Assembly (NCBI GenBank): GCA_035709005.1
Contig: DASTFB010000087.1
Coordinates: 248,001-312,000 of the forward strand
Direction of reading: 5' to 3'
Source of the DNA: Candidatus Methylomirabilota bacterium
GTDB taxonomy: Bacteria > Methylomirabilota > Methylomirabilia > Rokubacteriales > CSP1-6
DNA: 64,000 bases
The notes under the pieces are model-generated. The model was not told the origin of the DNA, searched no databases, and saw nothing but the letters and a program-made list of their open reading frames with translations. The number at the start of each line of letters is the position of its first letter. Within the stretch, counting starts at the first letter, position 1. Shown piece after piece: positions 4,374 to 41,866 of the stretch. The position numbers and the translations under genes are program-made.

Positions 4374-4495
4374 GCTACGGGCACTAGGGGTCTGGCCCAC
4401 CCCTTGCTCCCTCGCGCGCGCGTGGATCCCCTCGCGCTTCCCTCACGCCCGATCGCCGCCGGGGAGGGCGAGCAAGCCGCGGCGGGGCTCGTTCA

Positions 4496-5485
4496 GTGAG
4501 CGTTACGCTGCAGCAGTCACCCCCGGCGGCGGGGCCGCGAGTCGCCGGAACCCACCGCCTGGTCTTCCGCGGCCGCGCCGGATCGCTGCTGGGCATTCAC
4601 ATCGTCAACGTCTTCCTCACCTTGCTGACCTTCGGGGTGTACTCCTTCTGGGCCAAGACCCGCGTCCGGCGCTACCTCTTCGCCCAGACCGAGCTCGATC
4701 ACGATCGCTTCGCCTTCCACGGACGTGGTCTCGAAATGCTGATCGGCTTCGTCAAGGCCGTGATCCTGTTCGGCCTGCCGCTGGCCGCCCTCCAGTACGT
4801 GCCGCAGATCCTCGACGCCGGGCGCGCGACCACCGTGGCCGCCACGCTGGCCGCCTACGCGTTCGTGAGCGTGGTCATTCCCGTGGCCCGTACCGGCGCG
4901 CGCCGCTACCGGTTGAGTCGCACGTCGTGGCGCGGCATCCGGTTCTCCTTCCGGGGACGCACCGTGGACTTCGTCCGCATCTACGTGGCAGGCGCTCTGT
5001 TGAGCGGGCTGAGCCTCGGTCTCTACTACCCAGTGTTCGCCACGCGCAATCACGCATTTCTCGTCCAGCACTCGCACTTCGGCAATGCCCGCTTCGATTT
5101 CGACGGCCGGGGAACCGACCTCCTGGCCGACTTTCTTTACGCCCTGCTTCTGACCCTGCCCACCCTCGGTCTCGTCTGGTTCTGGTACGTGGCCCGGCAG
5201 CGGCGGTTCTTCTGGAATCACACGACCCTCCTCACCGCCCGCTTCCGCGCGACGGTGACCGGGTGGCGCCTGTTCCGGCTCAAGCTCGGCAATCTCCTGC
5301 TGATCCTGCTCACGCTCGGGCTGGGCTGGCCGTGGGCGACCGTTCGCATCGCCCGGTTCTGGTGCCGACACTTGACCCTCGAGGGGGCCGTCGATCTGGC
5401 CGCCATCCAGCAAGAGACCCAGGCCGCCTCGGCCACCGGCGAGGGCCTCCTCGGCCTCCTCGAGGCCGACCTCGACATCGGATGA
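4496..5485 (+). CDS. YjgN family (DUF898) multi-pass inner-membrane protein
   Basis: 329 residues with about six hydrophobic helices and the repeated pattern of the family: a GVYSFWAKTRVRRYL block after the first helix, then two further blocks of the kind FDFDGRGTDLL and GLVWFWYVARQRRFF. Each is an internal copy of a helix followed by a basic/aromatic loop. Function of the family is unknown. GTG 4496 starts it. Its last codon overlaps the ATG of the M48 peptidase gene (ATGA), and YjgN-like and M48 genes occur together elsewhere, so a shared role in the envelope is likely. It heads a run of five coupled genes. Confidence 0.85.
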   Translation: MSVTLQQSPPAAGPRVAGTHRLVFRGRAGSLLGIHIVNVFLTLLTFGVYSFWAKTRVRRYLFAQTELDHDRFAFHGRGLEMLIGFVKAVILFGLPLAALQYVPQILDAGRATTVAATLAAYAFVSVVIPVARTGARRYRLSRTSWRGIRFSFRGRTVDFVRIYVAGALLSGLSLGLYYPVFATRNHAFLVQHSHFGNARFDFDGRGTDLLADFLYALLLTLPTLGLVWFWYVARQRRFFWNHTTLLTARFRATVTGWRLFRLKLGNLLLILLTLGLGWPWATVRIARFWCRHLTLEGAVDLAAIQQETQAASATGEGLLGLLEADLDIG

Positions 5486-20216: not shown

Positions 20217-20735
20217 GTGACACGACCCCCGCTCCTCGTCGTCTTCGTTGCCGTCGCGATCATCACGCTCGGCGTGACCGCGGGCGCTGTCATGTCCCAG
20301 CTCGGGCCCCAGACCGAGCGCTACGCCGAGGCCCGCATCCGGGCCAACGCCCCGGCCCACGGCCTGGCCGGGACGGCCGAGTACGACGACGAGGTGATCG
20401 CGCGCGCCGTCTACACGGCCGAGGCTGGCCTGTCGTTCCTGCATACCCACGCCATGGGGCTCGGACCGATCGTCCTCCTGGCTGCGACCGTGGTGGCCAC
20501 CGTCGTGCGCGGCGTCCGACGGCGCGCCCTGCTGTACGGGCTGCTGACGGTGGGCGGCCTGTTCCCCTCCGGCTACCTGGTGTGCGCTCTGGCGGTGCTG
20601 GAGGCCGGACGCGACACCGGCATCGAGCTCGCCGAAGCCTGGGTGTTGACGCCACTGGGTGGCGGGATGATCGTCGGTCTCATCGTGCTGGCCGTTGTCC
20701 TGGCCGGCGGCGGGCGACAGTCCTCGGCGCCATGA
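20217..20735 (+). CDS. Four-helix membrane protein, first of a tandem paralogous pair
   Basis: 172 residues with hydrophobic helices at about 5-28, 82-98, 106-128 and 146-166. Between helix 1 and 2 lie HGLAG and the His-rich SFLHTHAMGLG; helix 3 carries LLTVGGLFPSGYLV. The next gene encodes a protein with the same layout and matching motifs, so they arose by duplication. GTG 20217 begins it; the stop overlaps the next ATG (ATGA). No family is recognised. Paired His residues at a membrane edge could bind metal or heme, which is speculation. Confidence 0.7.
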   Translation: MTRPPLLVVFVAVAIITLGVTAGAVMSQLGPQTERYAEARIRANAPAHGLAGTAEYDDEVIARAVYTAEAGLSFLHTHAMGLGPIVLLAATVVATVVRGVRRRALLYGLLTVGGLFPSGYLVCALAVLEAGRDTGIELAEAWVLTPLGGGMIVGLIVLAVVLAGGGRQSSAP

Positions 20736-21265
20736 CCCAGGGGCGGCCCGAGGGCTGGCGGCTGCCCGCGGTGTCGGTGCTCCTGGTGGCCGTGCTGCTC
20801 ATCGCCTGCGCCGAGGTCGGCGGCGCAGCCATGGCCCGGTTCAAGCTGGAGCTCACGCGCTGGGTGCGGGGGGAGATGCTGGCCCGACCCGACACCCACG
20901 GTCTCGTCGGGGTGCGGGATGTCGACGAGCAGATCATCGACGAAGCGCTCGTGAAGTTCGATGCCGGACTCCGGCTCTTTCATCTCCACGGCGAGGGCAT
21001 GGGCGTCGTCATCCTGGCCACTACCATGGTCGCGGCCACCCTGGTGCGGTCGGCCGCCCTCCGCCGGACGATCGTCGGCCTCGTCACCGTGGGGGGCGCC
21101 GGCTATCCCGTGGGGTACCTCGTGTGGAGCGCGCTCATTCCCTATTACGGCGTCGAGACCGGCAAGCTGGTCGCGGAGTGGCTCGTGTGGATTCCGTTCG
21201 GCGGGGCCGCCCTCGTCGCCATGTGGCTGCTCACGGCCGTGGTGGCCACCCGCATGGTAGGCTAG
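20732..21265 (+). CDS. Four-helix membrane protein, second of a tandem paralogous pair
   Basis: 177 residues, same topology as its upstream neighbour: signal anchor, HGLVG, LFHLHGEGMGV, then VTVGGAGYPVGYLVW and a last helix. The conserved core (HGL, H-x-H, TVGG, GYLV) is therefore fixed in both copies while the rest has diverged. ATG 20732 overlaps the first gene's stop. Just at its 3' end a truncated LivH gene begins in another frame, so this end may mark a deletion joint, although the C-terminus (LTAVVATRMVG) looks natural. Confidence 0.7.
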   Translation: MTQGRPEGWRLPAVSVLLVAVLLIACAEVGGAAMARFKLELTRWVRGEMLARPDTHGLVGVRDVDEQIIDEALVKFDAGLRLFHLHGEGMGVVILATTMVAATLVRSAALRRTIVGLVTVGGAGYPVGYLVWSALIPYYGVETGKLVAEWLVWIPFGGAALVAMWLLTAVVATRMVG

Positions 21266-21944
21266 CGCTCCTCGTCGCTCCCCTGCTGGTGGGCGCCGTC
21301 GGCGCCCTCACCGAGGTGACGACCCTGCGTCCGCTGTACCGTCGGGAGCCCCTCTATGGCCTCATCCTGACGTTCGGCCTGGCCCTGGTGTTCCGCGAGG
21401 GCGTGCGCCAAGTCTGGGGGGCGATATGCGGCGCATCCTGCCGCCGGTGACCGGCTCCACCCCCCTGCTGGGGATGACCTATCCCAACTACCGGCTGTTC
21501 CTGCTCGCCATGGCCTCTTTGCTGCTCGTCGGCATCTGGCTGTTCTTCACGCGCACGCGGGCCGGAATTCTCGTGCGGGCCGCCGTGCAGGAACGCCGAG
21601 ATGCTGGATGGACTGGGCGTGAACGTGCCGCGTCTGTTCACGTTCACGTTTGCCGGCTCGGCGGCCCTGGCCGCCCTGGCCGGGCTGCTGCTGGCGCCGG
21701 TGTTCACGGTGTACACGCAGATGGCGTAGAGCTGATCCTGCTCGCCTTCATCGTGGTCATTCTGGGCGGCATGGGCTCGATGGGCGGCTCGGTGATCGCC
21801 GCCTTCGTCATCGGCGTCGCCCAGAGCGTGCTCACCCTGTGGATGAACCCGCAGCGGGTCGCCATCGCCATCTTCGGCATCATGATCCTCGTGCTCATCG
21901 TCCGCCCGCGGGGCTTCTTCGGGCGGGAGGGCGTCCTTGAATAG
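21262..21944 (+). pseudogene. Remnant of LivH-type branched-chain amino acid ABC permease
   Basis: The text starts mid-protein with LLVAPLLVGAVGALTE and LRPLYRREPLYGLILTFGLA, typical of LivH, directly at the end of the preceding gene; the N-terminal third is absent. It then shifts frame twice: MTYPNYRLFLLAMASLLLVG in one frame, MLDGLGVNVPRLFTFTFAGS in another, ending VFTVYTQMA and a stop. The final part, LILLAFIVVILGGMGSMGGS to RPRGFFGREG, is back in the second frame. The order is that of LivH, so this is a truncated, frameshifted copy that cannot make a working permease. Confidence 0.75.
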
Positions 21945-22032
21945 CCGCATCGGCTGGGGCGCGGTCGCCGTCTTCGGCGCGCTAGTCCTGCTGCCGCTCG
22001 TGCCGGGGATGACCCGGTACTACCTGCTCCTG
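21937..22032 (+). pseudogene. N-terminal scrap of LivM-type ABC permease
   Basis: ATG 21937 overlaps the LivH remnant's end by eight bases, as livM normally follows livH. About 30 residues (GWGAVAVFGALVLLPLVPGM, then TRYYLLL) match the first membrane helix of LivM proteins. The similarity then stops abruptly and the DNA continues as a thioredoxin-like fragment. This looks like a deletion joint. Confidence 0.55.
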
Positions 22033-22213
22033 GCTCGATCCCGACATGCGGACCGCCCAAGCCTGGCGGGTCACCGCACTGCCTGCGACGTTCATCATCC
22101 ACCCCGGGGGCAGGTGGCCGGGATGGCGATCCGTCCGCGAGAAGAGCCCCGAGATGCGTGCGCTCATCGAGAGCCTGCTTCCTGCGCCGCTGGCCGGGGA
22201 AGCCGGATCGTAA
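22027..22213 (+). pseudogene. C-terminal scrap of a thioredoxin/TlpA-like protein
   Basis: In one frame the DNA reads WLDPDMRTAQAWRVTALPAT followed by FIIHPGG, the cis-Pro strand region typical of TlpA/AhpC-type redoxins. It shifts frame at GQVAGMAIRPRE and again at MRALIESLLPAPLAGEAGS before TAA at 22211-22213. The CxxC half is missing. The last 50 bases overlap the histidine kinase gene on the other strand. The 900-base stretch from 21266 holds only such scraps. Confidence 0.55.
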
Positions 22214-23789
22214 AGGTCGAGCCCTTGCCCACCTGGCTCACCACCTGGATGGAACCGCCGTGCTGACGCACGATGCCCTCGCTGACGGCAAGCCCCAGTC
22301 CGGTGCCGTTGACCTCGGACTTGGTCGTGAAGAACGGCTCGAAGATGCGCTGCAGATGCTCGGGGGCGATACCGGGCCCGGTGTCGGAGAGCACCACGGC
22401 GACGTCATCCGCCGAGGCGCGAGTCTGTACGATCAGCAACCCGCCTCCGGGCATCGCCTGGACGGCGTTGTTCAAAATGTTGAGGAACACCTGCTTCATC
22501 CGTGCGGGATCGACTTCCACCGGCGGCAGATCCGCCGCGTATCGCTCCTCGATCGTGACGGGTATCACCCCTTGCAGGCGGACCAGGCCTACCGCCTGCC
22601 GGAGGACGCAATTGAGATCCGTGGTCTGGGGAAAGAACGGGCGCTGCCGGCTGAAGTCCAGGAGGTCGCGCACGATGTCCCGGGCGCGCGAGGCCTCGGT
22701 CACGATCAGACTGGCGTCGGCGTGGAGGGCACTGTCGCTCGGTAACTGCTCGACCAGCAGGGAGGCGAAGCCGAGCACGCTCGTCAGCGGGTTGTTGATC
22801 TCGTGGGCCACCTGCGCGGCCATCTCACCGATCGCCGCCAGCTTGGCGGCCTGAACGAGTTGGGCCTGGGTCTCCCGCAGCTCTCCCATTTTGCGGGTCA
22901 CGCCTTCGTAGAGCCGGGCATTCTCGACCGCGATGGCCACCTGGCTGGCGACGATCTTGAGGAGCTGCTCGTCGTCCGTCTTGGTGCCGGCCGAGGTCAG
23001 CGTCCGGGCCGTCATGAGGCCGATGTCCCGCTGCTGGACCATCAGCGGGAGCGCCCACTCGGTCTCCCGCCAGTCGTCGGTGGCCTCCCCGAACGGCATG
23101 ACCACAGGCCGCGGCGTGGCCCCCGCGTACGGGGCGACGACCTGCAAACGCTCCGGCTCGACCAGGTCCACGGTGAGGGCCGTGGCCCCGATGGCTCGCG
23201 CCAACTGCGGCAGCAGGCGCTCCAGCATTGTACGCACGTCGAGGGCCGAGGTGATGCCCTGTACCGCCGTGTGCAGAGCCTCCAGCTGCGAGGCCCGGCG
23301 GAACACGTGGTCGTTGAGCCTTTGCAGTTCTTCGATCTGGCGCACCATCCGGTAGACCAGTCGCTGGTTCAGCTCACGCAGGAAGGGCCCCTGCTCGCGC
23401 TCCTCCAGGCGTTCGCGCTTGCCGTGGAGAAACTCGGTCAACTGCTGGGCAAAGGTGTCCACGTCGAGGGGCTTCGTGATGTAGCCATCGCAGCCGGCGA
23501 CGAGGGTTCGCTCGCGATCCCCGTTCATGGCGTGGGCGGTGACGGCGATGATCGGCGTGTTGCAGAGCACTGGGAACGAGCGCAGCGCCACCCCGACCTC
23601 GTACCCGTCGATCCCGGGCAGGTCGATGTCGAGCAGGATGAGCGCCGGCTCTTCGCGCAGGGCGGCGGCGATGCCGGCGAGCCCGTCCTCGGCCTCGATC
23701 ACCTCGTACTGCTCGGCCGGCAGCAGCGCCCGCACGAGCATGCGGTTCTCCGGGTTGTCCTCGATGTTGAGGACCTTGATCGGCATCAT
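22164..23789 (-). CDS. Receiver-GAF-histidine kinase
   Basis: 541 residues. A CheY-like receiver occupies 1-120: acidic pair in NIEDNPENR, phosphoacceptor Asp in ILLDIDLPGIDGYE, Lys in GYITKPLD. A coiled segment leads to a GAF domain (about 170-310). The kinase core has the H-box QVAHEINNPLTSVLGF, N-box NILNNAVQAM, DTGPGIAPEHLQRIF and the G2 box NGTGLGL. An N-terminal receiver makes it an output-adjusted kinase rather than a membrane sensor; no membrane helix is seen. It is the last gene of a run of five on this strand, 16 bases after the GNAT gene. Confidence 0.9.
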   Translation of the reverse strand: MMPIKVLNIEDNPENRMLVRALLPAEQYEVIEAEDGLAGIAAALREEPALILLDIDLPGIDGYEVGVALRSFPVLCNTPIIAVTAHAMNGDRERTLVAGCDGYITKPLDVDTFAQQLTEFLHGKRERLEEREQGPFLRELNQRLVYRMVRQIEELQRLNDHVFRRASQLEALHTAVQGITSALDVRTMLERLLPQLARAIGATALTVDLVEPERLQVVAPYAGATPRPVVMPFGEATDDWRETEWALPLMVQQRDIGLMTARTLTSAGTKTDDEQLLKIVASQVAIAVENARLYEGVTRKMGELRETQAQLVQAAKLAAIGEMAAQVAHEINNPLTSVLGFASLLVEQLPSDSALHADASLIVTEASRARDIVRDLLDFSRQRPFFPQTTDLNCVLRQAVGLVRLQGVIPVTIEERYAADLPPVEVDPARMKQVFLNILNNAVQAMPGGGLLIVQTRASADDVAVVLSDTGPGIAPEHLQRIFEPFFTTKSEVNGTGLGLAVSEGIVRQHGGSIQVVSQVGKGSTFTIRLPRPAAQEAGSR

Positions 23790-23805
23790 CGGCCCACTCT
23801 CCCTG

Positions 23806-24435
23806 TCAGGCGAAGGAGAACCGCTCGGGGTGTGGCTCTTGCTGCCGTCGGGCTTCTAGCTCCTCGCGCAGGATGCCGAACACGATCACGTCACACCGGC
23901 GGCCGGCCTGGTAGCCGGCCTGGCGCAGGACACCTTCCTGCTGGAAGCCGTTGCGCTTCAGCGCGTTGATGCTGGGGGCGTTGTAATCGTAGACCTTGGC
24001 CTCGATCCGCTCCAGGGTCAGGATGTCGAGCCCCCAGGCACACATGAGCTTGCCCGCCTCGATGCCGCAGCCCTTTCCCAGGTCGCCACGGACGGCGATG
24101 ATGGTTTCCAGGAAGGCGTAGCCTTCCCGCCGGTGGATGTTGAAGAGCCGCACCAGCCCCAGCGGCGCTCCCTGCTCCTCGGGCGCCGTGACGATGAAGG
24201 CCGCCTGCGTGGGGTCAGCCCGACAGGCTTCCAGGAAGCAGAGCGGCGAGGCCGCACGCCGATACGCCCGCAGGAATTCACTACCGGCCATGCGCTCGAG
24301 AAACGGGTCGTTGGCCCAGTGGCGCAGCGCCCAGCAGTCGCTGGGCTTCGGGAACCGCAGCCACACCCGCTCGCCGCGGGCGACCACGCGCGACTCCGCG
24401 CCCGCCTGCTCCACGAGTTCGGTCGGGGGTGTCAT
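23806..24435 (-). CDS. GNAT family N-acetyltransferase (RimJ-like)
   Basis: 209 residues. The RimJ/RimL-like fold is marked by VWLRFPKPSDCWALRHWAND at the start, AFLETIIAVRGDLGKGCGIEAG as the acetyl-CoA pyrophosphate loop (GDLGKGCG for Q/RxxGxG/A) and VYDYNAPSINALKRNGFQ, the usual NxxxxxLYxKxGF region. It would acetylate an amino group on a protein or small molecule; the target is unknown. It begins one base after the stop of the secreted-protein gene, within the signalling operon. Confidence 0.85.
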   Translation of the reverse strand: MTPPTELVEQAGAESRVVARGERVWLRFPKPSDCWALRHWANDPFLERMAGSEFLRAYRRAASPLCFLEACRADPTQAAFIVTAPEEQGAPLGLVRLFNIHRREGYAFLETIIAVRGDLGKGCGIEAGKLMCAWGLDILTLERIEAKVYDYNAPSINALKRNGFQQEGVLRQAGYQAGRRCDVIVFGILREELEARRQQEPHPERFSFA

Positions 24436-24436
24436 G

Positions 24437-25180
24437 TCAGTCGTCGTCCCCGCCCCGTCGAACGCGGCCTTCGCCGGTGGCGATGAAGTTCAGGTCCAGC
24501 CGAACGGTCGGCACCCCGAGCGAGTGCTCGTTCGCCTGCACCGTCTGCGGATAGACGTTCGGGTACTCGCCGAACAGATAGGAGGGCGGCGAGACCATGA
24601 GACAGTCGACGGGCTGGCCCGTGTCGAGGCAGCCTTCAGGTACGCCGTAGATGAAGGGAAGACGGAAGACCCCCGACACCAGCCCCCGGAGCCGGCGGCC
24701 TTGGAGGGGCCCGCCCCGCGCGCCTTCGGCCACCCATTCGCCACGCAGGCTGCCGAGAGGCATCCCCTCGACCAGCGCGGCCGACAGATCGATCTGCCCG
24801 TGGATCGAGCCGCGGGCGATCGCCCACTCGTAGCCGTCCACCGTGTTGTCGCCCTGGACGACAACGGAGAACGATCCCTTGACCGGGCCCTTGCCGTCGG
24901 CCAGGCTCAAGTTGTCCCAGGCGATGGCGACGACGCCGCACTTGTCCAGAGCGAGCGCGGCCGCCAGCTCGGCCGGGCAGAGCGCCGTGCCAGCCTCGAT
25001 GGTACCGGCCAGCGCGGCCGTCGCCGTCCGGGTCCGGTACTCCGGACCTCGCCCACGGAGCTTCATGGTCTCGGTGACCTCGTACAGGGTGGCGTTCTGG
25101 GCGGCGGCCGCACCGGCGGTACCGAGCAGGATGGCGCCGGCTGTGGCCAGGCATCGAGCGAACGATCGGGCCCGATTCAT
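24437..25180 (-). CDS. Secreted protein of unknown function
   Basis: 247 residues. A clear signal peptide (MNRARSFARCLATAGAILLG, cleavage near AAAAQ) is followed by a beta-rich domain with three Cys (CPAEL, DKCGVVAIAWDN, and GCLDTGQPVDCL giving a possible disulfide). No family is recognised. ATG 25180 overlaps the stop of the receiver/HD-GYP gene (ATGA). It is the only exported product of the operon, so it may be the sensed or regulated component; that is inference. Confidence 0.75.
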   Translation of the reverse strand: MNRARSFARCLATAGAILLGTAGAAAAQNATLYEVTETMKLRGRGPEYRTRTATAALAGTIEAGTALCPAELAAALALDKCGVVAIAWDNLSLADGKGPVKGSFSVVVQGDNTVDGYEWAIARGSIHGQIDLSAALVEGMPLGSLRGEWVAEGARGGPLQGRRLRGLVSGVFRLPFIYGVPEGCLDTGQPVDCLMVSPPSYLFGEYPNVYPQTVQANEHSLGVPTVRLDLNFIATGEGRVRRGGDDD

Positions 25181-26715
25181 GATGTCGCCTCCATGGCAGT
25201 GCCGACGTGCAGCTCGGCCGGGTCCGCGAGAATTCCCGGGGCCTCGTCGGTCCAACCCTCGGCGATGTCCAGCAGCCGTTCCCGGGAAATTCTCGAGAAG
25301 GCCGTGGCTGTGATCGGATCGAACTGTGTCCCGGCCCCGCGCTCGATCTCGGCCAGGGCCACGTCGAACGCGAGAGCACGACGGTAGGAGCGGTCCGAGG
25401 TCATGGCGTCGAAGGCGTCGGCCGTCGTCACGATGCGTGCCGCCAGGGGGATCGCTTCACCGGCCAGGCCGTCGGGGTAGCCCGTGCCGTCGTAGCGTTC
25501 GTGATGGTGGCGGACGGCCAGCGCTTCACGGTGCAGGAAGCAGAGCGGCTTGAGGATCTTGTAGCCGACTTCGACGTGATCCTTCATGATTTCGTACTCG
25601 TCGGCGCTGAGCAGTCCGGGCTTGCCGAGAATCGTATCGATGATGGCCAGCTTGCCGAGGTCGTGAAGGATGGCGCCGCGGCAGGCGATGAGCCGGTCCT
25701 CGGCTGGCAATCCCATCTCGGCCGCCAGCTCGGCGGCGTACAGGGACACCCGCGCCGAGTGGCCCTTCAGATAGCGATCCTTGGACTCGATCGCGTTCAC
25801 GAACGCCGTGATCGTATTGACCAGGTTGCGCTCGGCGTCCTGCCCCAGACGCATGCGCTCCAGAGCCAGGACGGTGTTCTTGGCGAACCCCAGGAGCAGC
25901 TCCCGTTCATCGGGCAGGAACGCGCCGCGCGAGGCCGCGCGCCCCACCGCGAGCACCGCTTTCGTATCGGCGTTGAGGGAGGTGACGGCAGCCAGTGAGT
26001 GGTGGGGCTCCCCGGGGCGGCTCAGGGCCAGGGTTTGCACGCCGGGGCCCGCCTCGGAGCCGGCCAGGGCGCCACGGGTCCGTCTGAGTAGCTCGAGGGC
26101 CAGGTTGGCCTCACCGTGCTGGTGGGTTCGGACATGGCCGTTCCCATCGAGCATCAACAGCACGGCGGCATCCCCGGCCAGGCTGCCGAGGGTGTCGCTC
26201 AGGACGCGAGCGACGAACGCATCGGGCGAAGCCTCGCGCAGCGCCAGCTCGCCCATTCTGAAGAAGACCTCCAAACCGTGCTGTCGCCGGGCCAGCTCGT
26301 CGAGGAGCCCGGCGGGGCCCGTCGCCGTACGGCGCTGGCGGTCCGCCTGCTCGCGGACCCGTTGCACCAGCGCCCGAACCTCCTGGGCCGAGAACGGCTT
26401 GGCCAGGTAGTCGTGCGCGCCGTGGCGGAGACCGAACACTGCCGAGTCGACGGTGGGCGATCCGGTGATCAGCGCCACCGGCGTTTCGGGCTGGCGTGCC
26501 TTGACGGCGCGAAGTAAGTCCAGGCCGCTCAGTCCCGGCATCGTGATGTCAGAGATCACGAGGTCGAACTGATAACGGGCCACCAGGACGAGGGCCTCTT
26601 CGGCCGTCGACGCCGTCGACGTCGCGCAGCCCTGGCCGCCCAAGGCCGAAGTGATGAAGCGCAGGATGGGAGCTTGGTCGTCGACCACGAGAACGCGGAA
26701 CTCGCTGCGACTCAC
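25177..26715 (-). CDS. Response regulator with HD-GYP domain (putative cyclic-di-GMP phosphodiesterase)
   Basis: 512 residues. Receiver at 1-125 (VVDDQAPILRF, LVISDITMPGLSGLDL, DYLAKPFS), a GAF-like middle (about 150-310), then HD-GYP: ILHDLGKLAI and HHHERYDGTGYPDGL, with the GYP motif and metal ligands intact. It should hydrolyse cyclic di-GMP when phosphorylated. GTG 26715 shares GTGA with the upstream gene's stop, and its stop shares ATGA with the secreted-protein gene. The kinase is probably the receiver-GAF-kinase at the end of the operon. Confidence 0.9.
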   Translation of the reverse strand: MSRSEFRVLVVDDQAPILRFITSALGGQGCATSTASTAEEALVLVARYQFDLVISDITMPGLSGLDLLRAVKARQPETPVALITGSPTVDSAVFGLRHGAHDYLAKPFSAQEVRALVQRVREQADRQRRTATGPAGLLDELARRQHGLEVFFRMGELALREASPDAFVARVLSDTLGSLAGDAAVLLMLDGNGHVRTHQHGEANLALELLRRTRGALAGSEAGPGVQTLALSRPGEPHHSLAAVTSLNADTKAVLAVGRAASRGAFLPDERELLLGFAKNTVLALERMRLGQDAERNLVNTITAFVNAIESKDRYLKGHSARVSLYAAELAAEMGLPAEDRLIACRGAILHDLGKLAIIDTILGKPGLLSADEYEIMKDHVEVGYKILKPLCFLHREALAVRHHHERYDGTGYPDGLAGEAIPLAARIVTTADAFDAMTSDRSYRRALAFDVALAEIERGAGTQFDPITATAFSRISRERLLDIAEGWTDEAPGILADPAELHVGTAMEATS

Positions 26716-27770
26716 TGGTTCGCCGCCAGTTGATCGAGGAACTCCTGCCATTGCCGGGACACTCCGCTCTTCGGGAAGCGCAGCGCCTGGAGTGCCGGAT
26801 GGTTCACCATGCGCGTCTCCTCGACGCCCGGGCGCGCAGCGGGGAGCTTGGGCGAGGGGGCCGCCGGAGCGGCCTCCAGTCGCGGGCCCACGCCCAGGTC
26901 GACTGCGGCGTGCTCGATCAGGGCCGGCTCGACGGCGCGCATCGCCTGGGCGAGCAAGGCCTCCGCCATGTGACCGATCGGCTTGCTGGCATGGCCATTC
27001 GCCGCGTGACCGTTCGATGCATGGCCATTGGCCGCGTGGCCGTTGGCCCCGTAGCCGTTCGCGCCATGATCGTTCGCGGCGCGCCCGTTCAAGCCCGGTG
27101 TGCTGACCTTGTGGGCGTGTCCGGCCTTGGTGCTCGCCGGTGTATCCGTGTCCGAATCCGAGCCCTGAGGCGGCACACGAGATGGCCACGTTCTCGTGGG
27201 CTGAGCCGCCGATGCGGGCAGCACCGCGACCGCCGCCACTGCGTCCGCGAGGAAGGTCTCGGACCCGGGCTGGTTTTCGACATCCGGCACGATGGGCTCG
27301 GTCTCGGCGAGCGAACCGTTCGCCGGGACCGCGCCGCTGGTGGTCGTCGTATCCCCGACATCGGGGGTCTCGGCCAACTCGTGGCACTCCGGGTTGATCA
27401 CGGACAGGCGCTCGACGAGGTCCAGGAAGTCCCCGGGCATCCGCGCGGCGACGAAGACGAGCCGTGGCGGTCGGGTCGTGGCGATAACCGCATCGGGATA
27501 GAGCTGCCGCATCCGCTCGGGGAAGGTCAGGCACCAGATGTACGCGTCGAGCGCCGTGACGAGCATCGGGACGTCGGCCACCTCGGCGACCGCGACCAGG
27601 ACCGGCGTCTGTTTGTGGTCGACAGCCACCACGTCGACCATCGACCGCCCGAGACAAAGCGACGTCTCGAGAACCCTCAGACCCGGCTCGAGCGTCTCGA
27701 GGTGGGTGGCCACGAAGGAGCGCAACTGCTCCGGCGCGGTCTCTCGACTCTTCTTTGCGATCAGTGCCAT
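26712..27770 (-). CDS. Unrecognised protein with nuclease-fold-like N-terminus and Asn-Gly-His repeats
   Basis: 352 residues. Residues 1-115 (FVATHLETLEPGLRVLETSL, SMVDVVAVDHKQTPVLVAV, RPPRLVFVAARMPGDFLDLV) have the strand pattern of PD-(D/E)xK-type or NucS-like domains, but the usual E-x-K pair is replaced by hydrophobic residues, so it would be inactive. Residues about 115-225 are low-complexity, 226-260 are a seven-unit NGHAA repeat, and the last 80 are helical (MAEALLAQAMRAVEPALIEH). ATG 27770 has a good ribosome site (GGGGAAGGGAT). It is the first gene of the five-gene signalling operon. Function unknown. Confidence 0.65.
   Translation of the reverse strand: MALIAKKSRETAPEQLRSFVATHLETLEPGLRVLETSLCLGRSMVDVVAVDHKQTPVLVAVAEVADVPMLVTALDAYIWCLTFPERMRQLYPDAVIATTRPPRLVFVAARMPGDFLDLVERLSVINPECHELAETPDVGDTTTTSGAVPANGSLAETEPIVPDVENQPGSETFLADAVAAVAVLPASAAQPTRTWPSRVPPQGSDSDTDTPASTKAGHAHKVSTPGLNGRAANDHGANGYGANGHAANGHASNGHAANGHASKPIGHMAEALLAQAMRAVEPALIEHAAVDLGVGPRLEAAPAAPSPKLPAARPGVEETRMVNHPALQALRFPKSGVSRQWQEFLDQLAANQ
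26985..27089 (-). repeat. Seven tandem 15-bp units coding for NGHAA-type pentapeptides
   Basis: The units translate as NGRAA, NDHGA, NGYGA, NGHAA, NGHAS, NGHAA, NGHAS. They lie in frame in the first gene of the signalling operon. The near-identity of the last four units points to recent replication slippage. Spaced His residues could bind metal. Confidence 0.85.
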
Positions 27771-27941
27771 ATCCCTTCCCCTCAGTTGGCTGGTGGCCGC
27801 GCTCGTCTTCGACACGCAGAGGTACCGAGCAACAGCGATACCAAACCGACAACGCGCGGAAATCCGAGGGGTTCAGCGGGGGGACGGGCGAGCGATCTGT
27901 GACTTTCTCCCGGGAGATTCGACGGAGCGACGAGGAACTAT

Positions 27942-29297
<1,356 letters not shown>

Positions 29298-39982: not shown

Positions 39983-41866
39983 ATGCCGCAAACGGTGTAC
40001 TACGACGCCCGGTCGCCGGTCGCCGCAGATGCGGCCTCGACGCTGGCCGGCGAGTTCGAAGTACAACCGACGGTCCCCGGAGTGCCGATCCCGGCGATGC
40101 CGGCCGTGCTGGTCGTCGACGGCGACGTGGCCGATCCCCCGCCGCTGGCCCGGATGCACGTGATCGCCCTCGTGGCCCCGCCGGCCGGCGGTCCCTGGCC
40201 CGAGCACTGGTACGCCGTGCTGCCCCGCGGTGTGGGGCGGCCCATCCTGGCCCGCACGGTCGCCAGCGCCTTCGCCGACCTGGATACCGCCGCCGAGGTA
40301 CGCCGGCTCGGTCACGAGCTGGCCGAGCTCAACGCGATCGGGATTCGGCTGTCCGCGGAGCGCCGACCCGACACCCTGCTGGAGCTCATCCTCGGCAAGG
40401 CCCGCGAGATCACGGAGAGCGACGCCGGCTCGCTGTACCTGGTGGAGGAGGAGCGCGACGCCGGCCGTCACCTGTTCTTCGCCCTGGCGCAGAACGACAG
40501 CGTCGACATCCCATTTCGTGCGGCGCGGCTGCCCCTGGACAACGCCAGCATCGCCGGCCACGTGGCCCTTACCGGCAAGACCGTGAACCTCGAGGACGCC
40601 TATCACCTTCCCCTCGGCTCCCCCTTCCACATCAACAAGGCGTTCGACGAGCAGATCGGTTACCGCACCAAGTCCATGCTCGTCGTGCCCATGCGCACGC
40701 CGCCCGGGGAGACCATCGGTATCCTCCAGCTGATCAACTGCAAGCCGGGAGGGCCGGGGCGACTGGTGGACCGCGACGACGTCGAGCGTCGCGTGCGGCC
40801 CTTCGGACCCCGGTACGAGGCGCTCGCCGAGTCGCTGGCCTCACAAGCGGCGGTCGCTGTCGACAACAGTCGCCTCTATCAGAGCATCCGGCGACTGTTC
40901 GAGGGCTTCGTGAGCGCGTCGGTGATGGCCATCGAGGCGCGCGACCCGACGACCTCGGGCCACTCCTTCCGCGTCGCCGAGCTCAGCGTGGCCCTGGCAG
41001 AGGCGGTGACCCGCTGCGCGCATGGGCGTTACGCCTCCGCGCGCTTCAGCTCCGACGAGATCAGGGAGCTCCGATACGCCGCGCTCCTCCACGACTTCGG
41101 CAAGGTGGGAGTCCGCGAGCACGTGCTGCTCAAGGCCAAGAAGCTGTATCCGGCGCAACTGGACGCCATTCGCCAGCGGGTCGCCCTGGCCAAGCGCGGC
41201 CTGGAGCTCCGCTGCGAGCGCGGCAAGCTCGACGCCCTCCTCCGGCGGGGCCCCGGCGACTATGCGGAGGACGCCGCCCGCCTGGAGTCCGAGCTGGCGG
41301 TCCTGGTGAGGGAGATCGACGCGGCGCTGGAGCACATCGAGCAGGCCAACGAGCCGGAAGTGCTCCCCCGGGAGACAGCCGCTCAGGTCGAGCGGCTGGC
41401 CCGGCGGGTCATCGAGGACTCGGCGTCGGGACCCCGGACCCTGCTCACGCCCGACGAAACCCGGGCCCTGCGTATCGCGCGCGGCAGCCTGACCGAGGAG
41501 GAAGTGCGCGAAATCCGCTCTCACGTCGTGCACACCTGGGAGTTCCTGGCCCGGATTCCCTGGACCAAGGAGTTCCGTCGCATCCCGGAGATTGCGCGGT
41601 CCCACCACGAGAAGCTGGACGGCTCCGGCTATCCCCATGGCCTGACGGGCGACCAGATCCCCCTGCAGTCGCGGATCATGACCATCGCCGACATCTTCGA
41701 CGCGCTCACGGCCGGCGATCGTCCCTACAAGCGTGCGGTACCCGTCTCCCAGGCGCTCGCTATCCTGGATGAGGAGCGGCAGGCGGGCACCATCGATGGC
41801 GAGCTCGTGGACCTGTTCGTGAGCGCGCGCGTCTGGGAGCGCGCGCTACGCCACCAGCAGCAGTAA
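39983..41866 (+). CDS. GAF domain protein with split HD-GYP phosphodiesterase domain
   Basis: 627 residues. Residues 1-100 are a degenerate receiver-like fold (PAMPAVLVVDGDVADPPPLA). GAF covers about 115-290 (ADESDAGSLYLVEEE-like, SIAGHVALTGKTVNLED). HD-GYP follows with LLHDFGKVGVREH at about 368 and SHHEKLDGSGYPHGL at about 540. The two halves are about 170 residues apart, against about 60 in normal members; the extra about 105 residues are helical and charged, probably a coiled coil. It should hydrolyse cyclic di-GMP. It diverges from the ligase gene with 50 bases between. Confidence 0.88.
   Translation: MPQTVYYDARSPVAADAASTLAGEFEVQPTVPGVPIPAMPAVLVVDGDVADPPPLARMHVIALVAPPAGGPWPEHWYAVLPRGVGRPILARTVASAFADLDTAAEVRRLGHELAELNAIGIRLSAERRPDTLLELILGKAREITESDAGSLYLVEEERDAGRHLFFALAQNDSVDIPFRAARLPLDNASIAGHVALTGKTVNLEDAYHLPLGSPFHINKAFDEQIGYRTKSMLVVPMRTPPGETIGILQLINCKPGGPGRLVDRDDVERRVRPFGPRYEALAESLASQAAVAVDNSRLYQSIRRLFEGFVSASVMAIEARDPTTSGHSFRVAELSVALAEAVTRCAHGRYASARFSSDEIRELRYAALLHDFGKVGVREHVLLKAKKLYPAQLDAIRQRVALAKRGLELRCERGKLDALLRRGPGDYAEDAARLESELAVLVREIDAALEHIEQANEPEVLPRETAAQVERLARRVIEDSASGPRTLLTPDETRALRIARGSLTEEEVREIRSHVVHTWEFLARIPWTKEFRRIPEIARSHHEKLDGSGYPHGLTGDQIPLQSRIMTIADIFDALTAGDRPYKRAVPVSQALAILDEERQAGTIDGELVDLFVSARVWERALRHQQQ

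Follow-up and report, generated by a model that had tools for sequence, protein, structure and literature searches.

AtoS and AtoC are a cognate kinase and response regulator, and sigma-54 systems of the AtoS/AtoC and ZraS/ZraR types are the described systems closest to a group of signalling genes in a 64,000-nucleotide (nt) stretch of DNA from a Candidatus Methylomirabilota bacterium (G000:C87:248001-312000, hereafter the window; G000 is the genome of origin, 4.59 Mb in 134 contigs). The likeness lies in the kinase core, the regulator, and a sigma-54 promoter near the regulator gene. However, the nearest NCBIfam models, AtoS for the window kinase (235.5 bits) and AtoC for the window regulator (464.7 bits), score below their equivalog cut-offs of 646 and 714, and the window kinase is a soluble protein that carries an N-terminal receiver and a GAF domain. 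To our knowledge, neither type of system has a counterpart of the HD-GYP, methyltransferase and GNAT genes of the group, or of the two genes here called gene 1 and F3. The PrsK/PrsR pair of XrtA/PEP-CTERM systems likewise joins a kinase with a seven-transmembrane (7TM)-type N-terminus to an NtrC-type regulator, but no exosortase or PEP-CTERM gene was seen in the operon. Membership of that system was rejected, because both scores fall below the cut-offs (PrsR model on the window regulator, 397.8 bits against 502.6; PrsK model on the 7TM kinase of a relative, 128.7 bits against 300). RpfG-type regulators and the NosR-family response regulator phosphodiesterases (NF053512) also combine REC and HD-GYP with intact motifs. 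The window HD-GYP protein matches NF053512 over residues 292-479 at 205 bits (below the cut-off of 400), and HD-GYP genes of the window type differ in being co-transcribed with gene 1 and usually with CheY. Lastly, the C-terminal domain of the mismatch endonuclease NucS/EndoMS has the same fold as the N-terminus of the gene 1 protein, and the first Asp is common to both; gene 1, in contrast, lacks the catalytic Glu and Lys and the N-terminal NucS domain, and has a long linker and an SRQW tail. The parts are of known kinds, and what is new is their combination, gene 1 and F3.

Soil communities include the uncultured Rokubacteria, for which almost no regulation is known. The lineage is also classified as Rokubacteriales within Methylomirabilota (PMC8780371). 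The window genes probably belong to a lineage-specific, sigma-54-controlled operon of Rokubacteria that combines two-component and cyclic-di-GMP (c-di-GMP) signalling, with one half in the window, and that works as proposed below. For this lineage, such an operon would amount to a well-delimited regulon open to testing, in which a single regulator acts with a single promoter type and, in relatives, a single enhancer. Two protein families also call for explanation: a NucS-fold protein that is catalytically dead and linked to signalling, and the exported barrel family F3.

A sequence-only reading of the window had placed five minus-strand open reading frames (ORFs) at 27770-22164 in a single signalling operon that mixes two-component, c-di-GMP, GNAT and export parts. 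Their coordinates and order hold, as do the joints: gene 1/HD-GYP -4 (GTGA), HD-GYP/secreted protein -4 (ATGA), secreted protein/GNAT +1 and GNAT/kinase +16. Pfam bears out the domain calls (REC plus HD_5; GNAT as Acetyltransf_3; REC-GAF-HisKA-HATPase), and the kinase has no predicted transmembrane segment, as that reading said. The boundary, on the other hand, was drawn too narrowly, leaving out the gene of an NtrC-type regulator, whose end lies 171 nt upstream of gene 1, and a sigma-54 promoter (Table 1). With these the locus has three features of an NtrC-family sigma-54 operon, namely an adjoining REC-AAA+(GAFTDA)-Fis regulator, a -24/-12 promoter, and RpoN encoded in the genome.

Gene neighbourhoods were taken from 20 related contigs and then from 20 more, with genes called by a codon-bias script and proteins clustered; the relatives, recognized by sequence, are metagenome assemblies of Candidatus Rokubacteria/Rokuibacteriota. 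At 24 of 24 loci (window included), the NtrC gene lies directly upstream of gene 1 and the REC-HD-GYP gene directly downstream. The usual order is NtrC, gene 1, REC-HD-GYP, a single REC (CheY), one or two UbiG/UbiE-like methyltransferases, F3, GNAT, a HisKA_7TM-GAF kinase (HisKA with a single GAF in the protein of one relative) and a REC-GAF kinase with one to three GAF domains, often followed by a second F3 gene. F3 is found within or directly after the operon in 19 of the 22 readable cases, and GNAT adjoins the kinases in every readable operon (22/22). The upstream flank often holds a divergent GAF-GGDEF diguanylate cyclase gene, or MlaA and cytochrome c.

The sequence-only reading would fall if homologues of the secreted protein (F3) and of the first protein never kept company with the rest, which is not what the genomes show. 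Recurring neighbours link the 24 loci, and among 57 family genomes, 33 have both, 2 have only F3, 9 only gene 1 and 13 neither (Fisher p = 1.4e-5). In the two F3-only genomes (G007 and G023) F3 still adjoins GNAT and a 7TM kinase. The comparison confirms that the operon is real, conserved across Rokubacteria relatives and not a chance grouping. No named system with this set had been recognized, and the set is likewise unnamed in the family libraries and the defence library searched; a literature search found nothing on this operon. Anti-phage defence was considered for the pairing of a NucS fold with an HD domain and rejected, as the PADLOC matches were merely marginal and fell on the HD and REC regions.

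The pattern TTGGTAYN5TTGCTC has two perfect matches in the genome of origin, and the promoter upstream of gene 1, TTGGTATCGCTGTTGCTC, is one of them. Of 32 gene 1 homologues, 31 have an equivalent -24/-12 element in front of them, compared with 8 among 119 other genes (Fisher 1e-23); for NtrC genes the count is 1 of 28, and for methyltransferase genes 1 of 22. The same promoter is carried by 17 of the 29 F3 genes that have their own leader, stand-alone copies included (Fisher 3e-9 against the same 8/119). Genome-wide, a strict sigma-54 motif has 20 matches, 19 of them intergenic and most directly before an ORF; the reversed pattern, used as a control, gave 10 and 4 matches on the two strands.

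Many relatives have, in their operon leaders, a palindrome with the consensus CTTGGCTAGGAATCAGCCAAT, also written as AATCAGCC, some 88-102 nt before the promoter. A matrix trained solely on operon leaders, with F3 leaders excluded from the training, also locates the palindrome ahead of F3 promoters, with unchanged spacing. It gives no such site ahead of 18 other sigma-54-like promoters in the genome of origin (Mann-Whitney 5e-6) or of the stand-alone paralogues of gene 1. Because the F3 genes with their own promoter share both the promoter type and the upstream palindrome at a fixed spacing, the NtrC regulator most likely has F3 as one of its outputs.

Two further promoter-like elements were seen. 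The other perfect operon-type match (G000:C102:80591; L150 8590-10465) stands before a gene for a GAF and GspE/PilB-like ATPase protein, which was considered as a regulon member and rejected, the operon enhancer being absent there. In the window, a full sigma-54-type motif, TGGCCCACCCCTTGCTC, at 4393-4409 (plus strand) lies about 100 nt before an ORF (4496-5485) for a 329-residue probable membrane protein, and is likewise without the operon enhancer.

The catalytic motifs of the signalling proteins are intact. The H, N, G1, F and G2 boxes and the REC Asp of the window kinase are intact, the regulator has GESGTGKE and GAFTDA, and the REC-HD-GYP protein, a predicted c-di-GMP phosphodiesterase, retains the HD, HHxE, GYP and phospho-acceptor Asp motifs. 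The window operon lacks the CheY, both methyltransferases and the 7TM kinase of the fuller operon of relatives. A second locus in the same genome (G000:C83; L180 9324-19182) encodes a REC protein, two methyltransferases, a second GNAT, a 7TM kinase (66% identity to its counterparts in relatives) and a REC-GAF-PAS-kinase of 1652 residues. The same two-locus split occurs in the two nearest relatives, G012 and G031 (with one methyltransferase retained in the gene 1 operon of G012), and both group with the window in the HD-GYP tree (100/99). In the genome of origin, one ancestral operon has thus been divided between two loci, the window holding one half, and the division offers a natural test of which components function together. 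Elsewhere in this genome, a 1013-residue protein (L181 4967-8008; G000:C123) carries the 7TM-GAF portion of the operon kinase (52% identity over 480 residues), followed by a C-terminal portion that differs.

Gene 1 has no Pfam family match. In an AlphaFold2 model built from 9 sequences (pLDDT 80.5), its first 139 residues match EndoMS/NucS in a Foldseek search (5gke, E 1.5e-7, prob 1.00, TM 0.67; 2vld, E 1.5e-6), and a profile search also gave EndoMS (E 0.029). The NucS-like PD-(D/E)XK domain spans about residues 10-135. In an alignment of 19 homologues, the first Asp of the catalytic D...ExK triad is kept in all 19, and the Glu and Lys are replaced in all 19; both positions (60 and 62) are Ala in the window, and relatives never have E and K. 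Gene 1, as modelled and aligned, is a nuclease fold without the catalytic E and K. The label "repeat protein" given to it earlier applies to the linker, a low-complexity segment with NGHAA repeats whose length runs from about 100 to more than 400 residues among homologues; it does not apply to the conserved parts, which are the N-terminal NucS-like domain and the C-terminal tail. The window tail reads FPKSGVSRQWQEFLDQL, and operon copies conserve the pattern FPxxGxSRQWxEFLxQL. In seven stand-alone paralogues the tail is a different one, LRQAGxAxVxVTxxGLxI, and three of these paralogues adjoin GAF-GGDEF genes. At L126, L128 and L134, stand-alone paralogues are divergent to two or three GAF-GGDEF diguanylate cyclase genes, both sides lying behind classical CTGGCAC/T sigma-54 promoters.

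F3 has no sequence match in Pfam, NCBIfam, PADLOC or the PDB. Two cysteines and a YExTExM-like motif at the start of the mature part are common to the 28 aligned members. An AlphaFold2 model has eight long strands (pLDDT 76.7, pTM 0.70) with a low-confidence insert at 150-185. A Foldseek search of this model against the PDB gave no match at E <= 0.001; the best were weak barrels (E 0.18-0.20), including the natural-product barrels LucK (E 0.18) and the spirotetronate-type enzyme Tsn15 (E 0.20). An AOC/lipocalin-like identity was rejected for want of a match at that threshold, and the claim was kept at a beta-barrel. F3 is an undescribed family, predicted to consist of exported beta-barrel proteins. 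F3 is present in 35 of the 57 family genomes, with up to 7 matches in one genome, and in none of the rest of the 388 genomes searched, apart from one probably mis-binned contig. That candidate (G155) was rejected as a case outside the phylum: it sits alone on a 3.7-kb contig and is 70% identical to a Rokubacteria F3. A plasmid search with one member as query found none. A scan of the genome contigs with the single window sequence found no relative, and a scan with an 8-row subset of the 28-row alignment found 8 Rokubacteria contigs. The two closest relatives (L066 1942-3559 and L067 7136-8693) have an extra F3 gene upstream of the operon, next to the gene of a FecR-like secreted protein that has a sigma-54 promoter of its own.

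The mechanism proposed here builds on what can be read from the DNA: the operon and its conservation, the promoter, the enhancer shared by operon and F3 genes in relatives, the lost nuclease residues and the two-locus split. The soluble REC-GAF kinase and the 7TM membrane kinase of the second locus would autophosphorylate on internal and membrane cues and would pass phosphate to the adjacent NtrC-type regulator. This regulator, bound at the upstream palindrome, would fire the sigma-54 promoter of gene 1, so that the operon amplifies its own signalling parts. The same regulator would switch on the F3 genes, whose products would be exported beta-barrel proteins acting outside the cytoplasm. The REC-HD-GYP protein, gated by the same kinases, would lower c-di-GMP, and the gene 1 protein may play no catalytic part but tether another product of the operon or act as its adaptor, a role that fits its features. 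The best-supported core of this scheme is the path from AtoS-like kinases through an AtoC-like regulator to the sigma-54 promoter; c-di-GMP breakdown, by way of the HD-GYP receiver, would be a parallel output and the F3 barrels the transcriptional one. The biological purpose may be a change of the cell surface, adhesion or pili. Twitching-motility genes have been reported in Rokubacteria (PMC5712423).

Several observations weigh against this mechanism. The promoter is absent from 12 of the 29 F3 genes with a leader, several of them inside the operon. Leaders of related genomes are non-independent observations. The candidate enhancer of the window is weak and inverted, lying on the strand opposite to most other sites; it reaches 7.9 bits at the expected spacing (shuffle p = 0.01, with the matrix built without the window). 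A sigma-54 promoter was sought at the second locus (G000:C83) and not found, and co-regulation of the two halves is therefore hypothetical. In some genomes (G001) the kinase locus occurs without F3, so F3 is not essential to the kinases. Finally, the steps from phosphotransfer onward draw on family knowledge, and both phosphotransfer and the c-di-GMP output are predictions.

It was suggested in the sequence-only reading that the secreted protein may supply, or be, the envelope end missing from the soluble kinase. Full operons, however, hold a HisKA_7TM kinase together with F3, and in the genome of origin the missing 7TM kinase sits at the second locus, so F3 need not supply the membrane end. 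The idea can be moved to the 7TM kinase, with F3 as a periplasmic sensory or accessory subunit that binds a ligand and signals to the kinases. This is unlikely, even though F3 stands between the methyltransferase and GNAT just ahead of the 7TM kinase in many operons, keeps its GNAT and 7TM kinase neighbours where gene 1 is absent, and has a fold compatible with a ligand-binding barrel. Loci with the 7TM kinase lack F3 in G000 (C83), G012 and G031, the F3-free genome G001 has the kinase too, and the window kinase is soluble. Moreover, the extra and stand-alone F3 copies with their own sigma-54 promoter and enhancer fit an output rather than a sensor subunit.

Given one or two methyltransferases and one GNAT as constant neighbours, and natural-product barrels among the weak fold matches of F3, these proteins could also form a small biosynthetic or modification pathway for a methylated or acetylated signal or envelope component, which the kinases and c-di-GMP parts merely regulate. 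The fold matches are not significant, however, the operon has no synthase or transporter, and the window copy lacks both methyltransferases; we regard such a pathway as quite improbable. That five ordinary signalling genes met by chance, with no shared function, is hardly credible: Rokubacteria are indeed kinase-rich (one kinase query gave 37-82 matches per genome in the eight genomes examined), but order and overlaps are conserved across many genera and promoter and enhancer are shared. The preferred reading, a sigma-54-controlled two-component/c-di-GMP operon, can be extended, doubtfully, to an undescribed Rokubacteria module in which the dead mismatch-nuclease fold with its tethered SRQW tail would link the sigma-54 circuit to c-di-GMP breakdown, and in which the regulated output would be lineage-specific exported beta-barrels whose ligand or modification involves the methyl- and acetyltransferases of the operon.

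Table 1. Features of the operon region (positions in the window)
Feature	Position	Strand	Remarks
NtrC-type response regulator (REC - sigma-54 activator AAA+ - Fis HTH)	27942..29297	-	451 residues; Pfam Response_reg, Sigma54_activat, HTH_8; presumed operon activator
Candidate NtrC enhancer site	27930..27950	.	Overlaps 3' end of NtrC gene; weak, tentative
Sigma-54 (-24/-12) promoter TTGGTATCGCTGTTGCTC	27827..27844	-	73 nt upstream of gene 1 start; GG 27842-27841, GC 27830-27829
Gene 1	26712..27770	-	352 residues; NucS/EndoMS-like PD-(D/E)XK domain, linker, tail (Foldseek, profile match, alignment)
REC - HD-GYP response regulator	25177..26715	-	512 residues; HD_5 E 5.9e-35, REC E 9.4e-26
Secreted protein, family F3	24437..25180	-	247 residues; signal peptide, predicted 8-stranded beta-barrel, two invariant Cys
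GNAT-family acetyltransferase	23806..24435	-	209 residues; PF13302 E 6.8e-13
REC - GAF - HisKA - HATPase soluble hybrid kinase	22164..23789	-	541 residues; AtoS-like kinase core

On the opposite strand, apparent fragments of a branched-chain amino-acid ABC permease (21426-22266) abut the 3' end of the kinase gene. Beyond them, at 20217-21265, lies a tandem pair of paralogous small membrane proteins of 172 and 177 residues. A second HD_5 (HD-GYP-type) domain is found at 41447-41806 (plus strand), within a 639-residue open frame.

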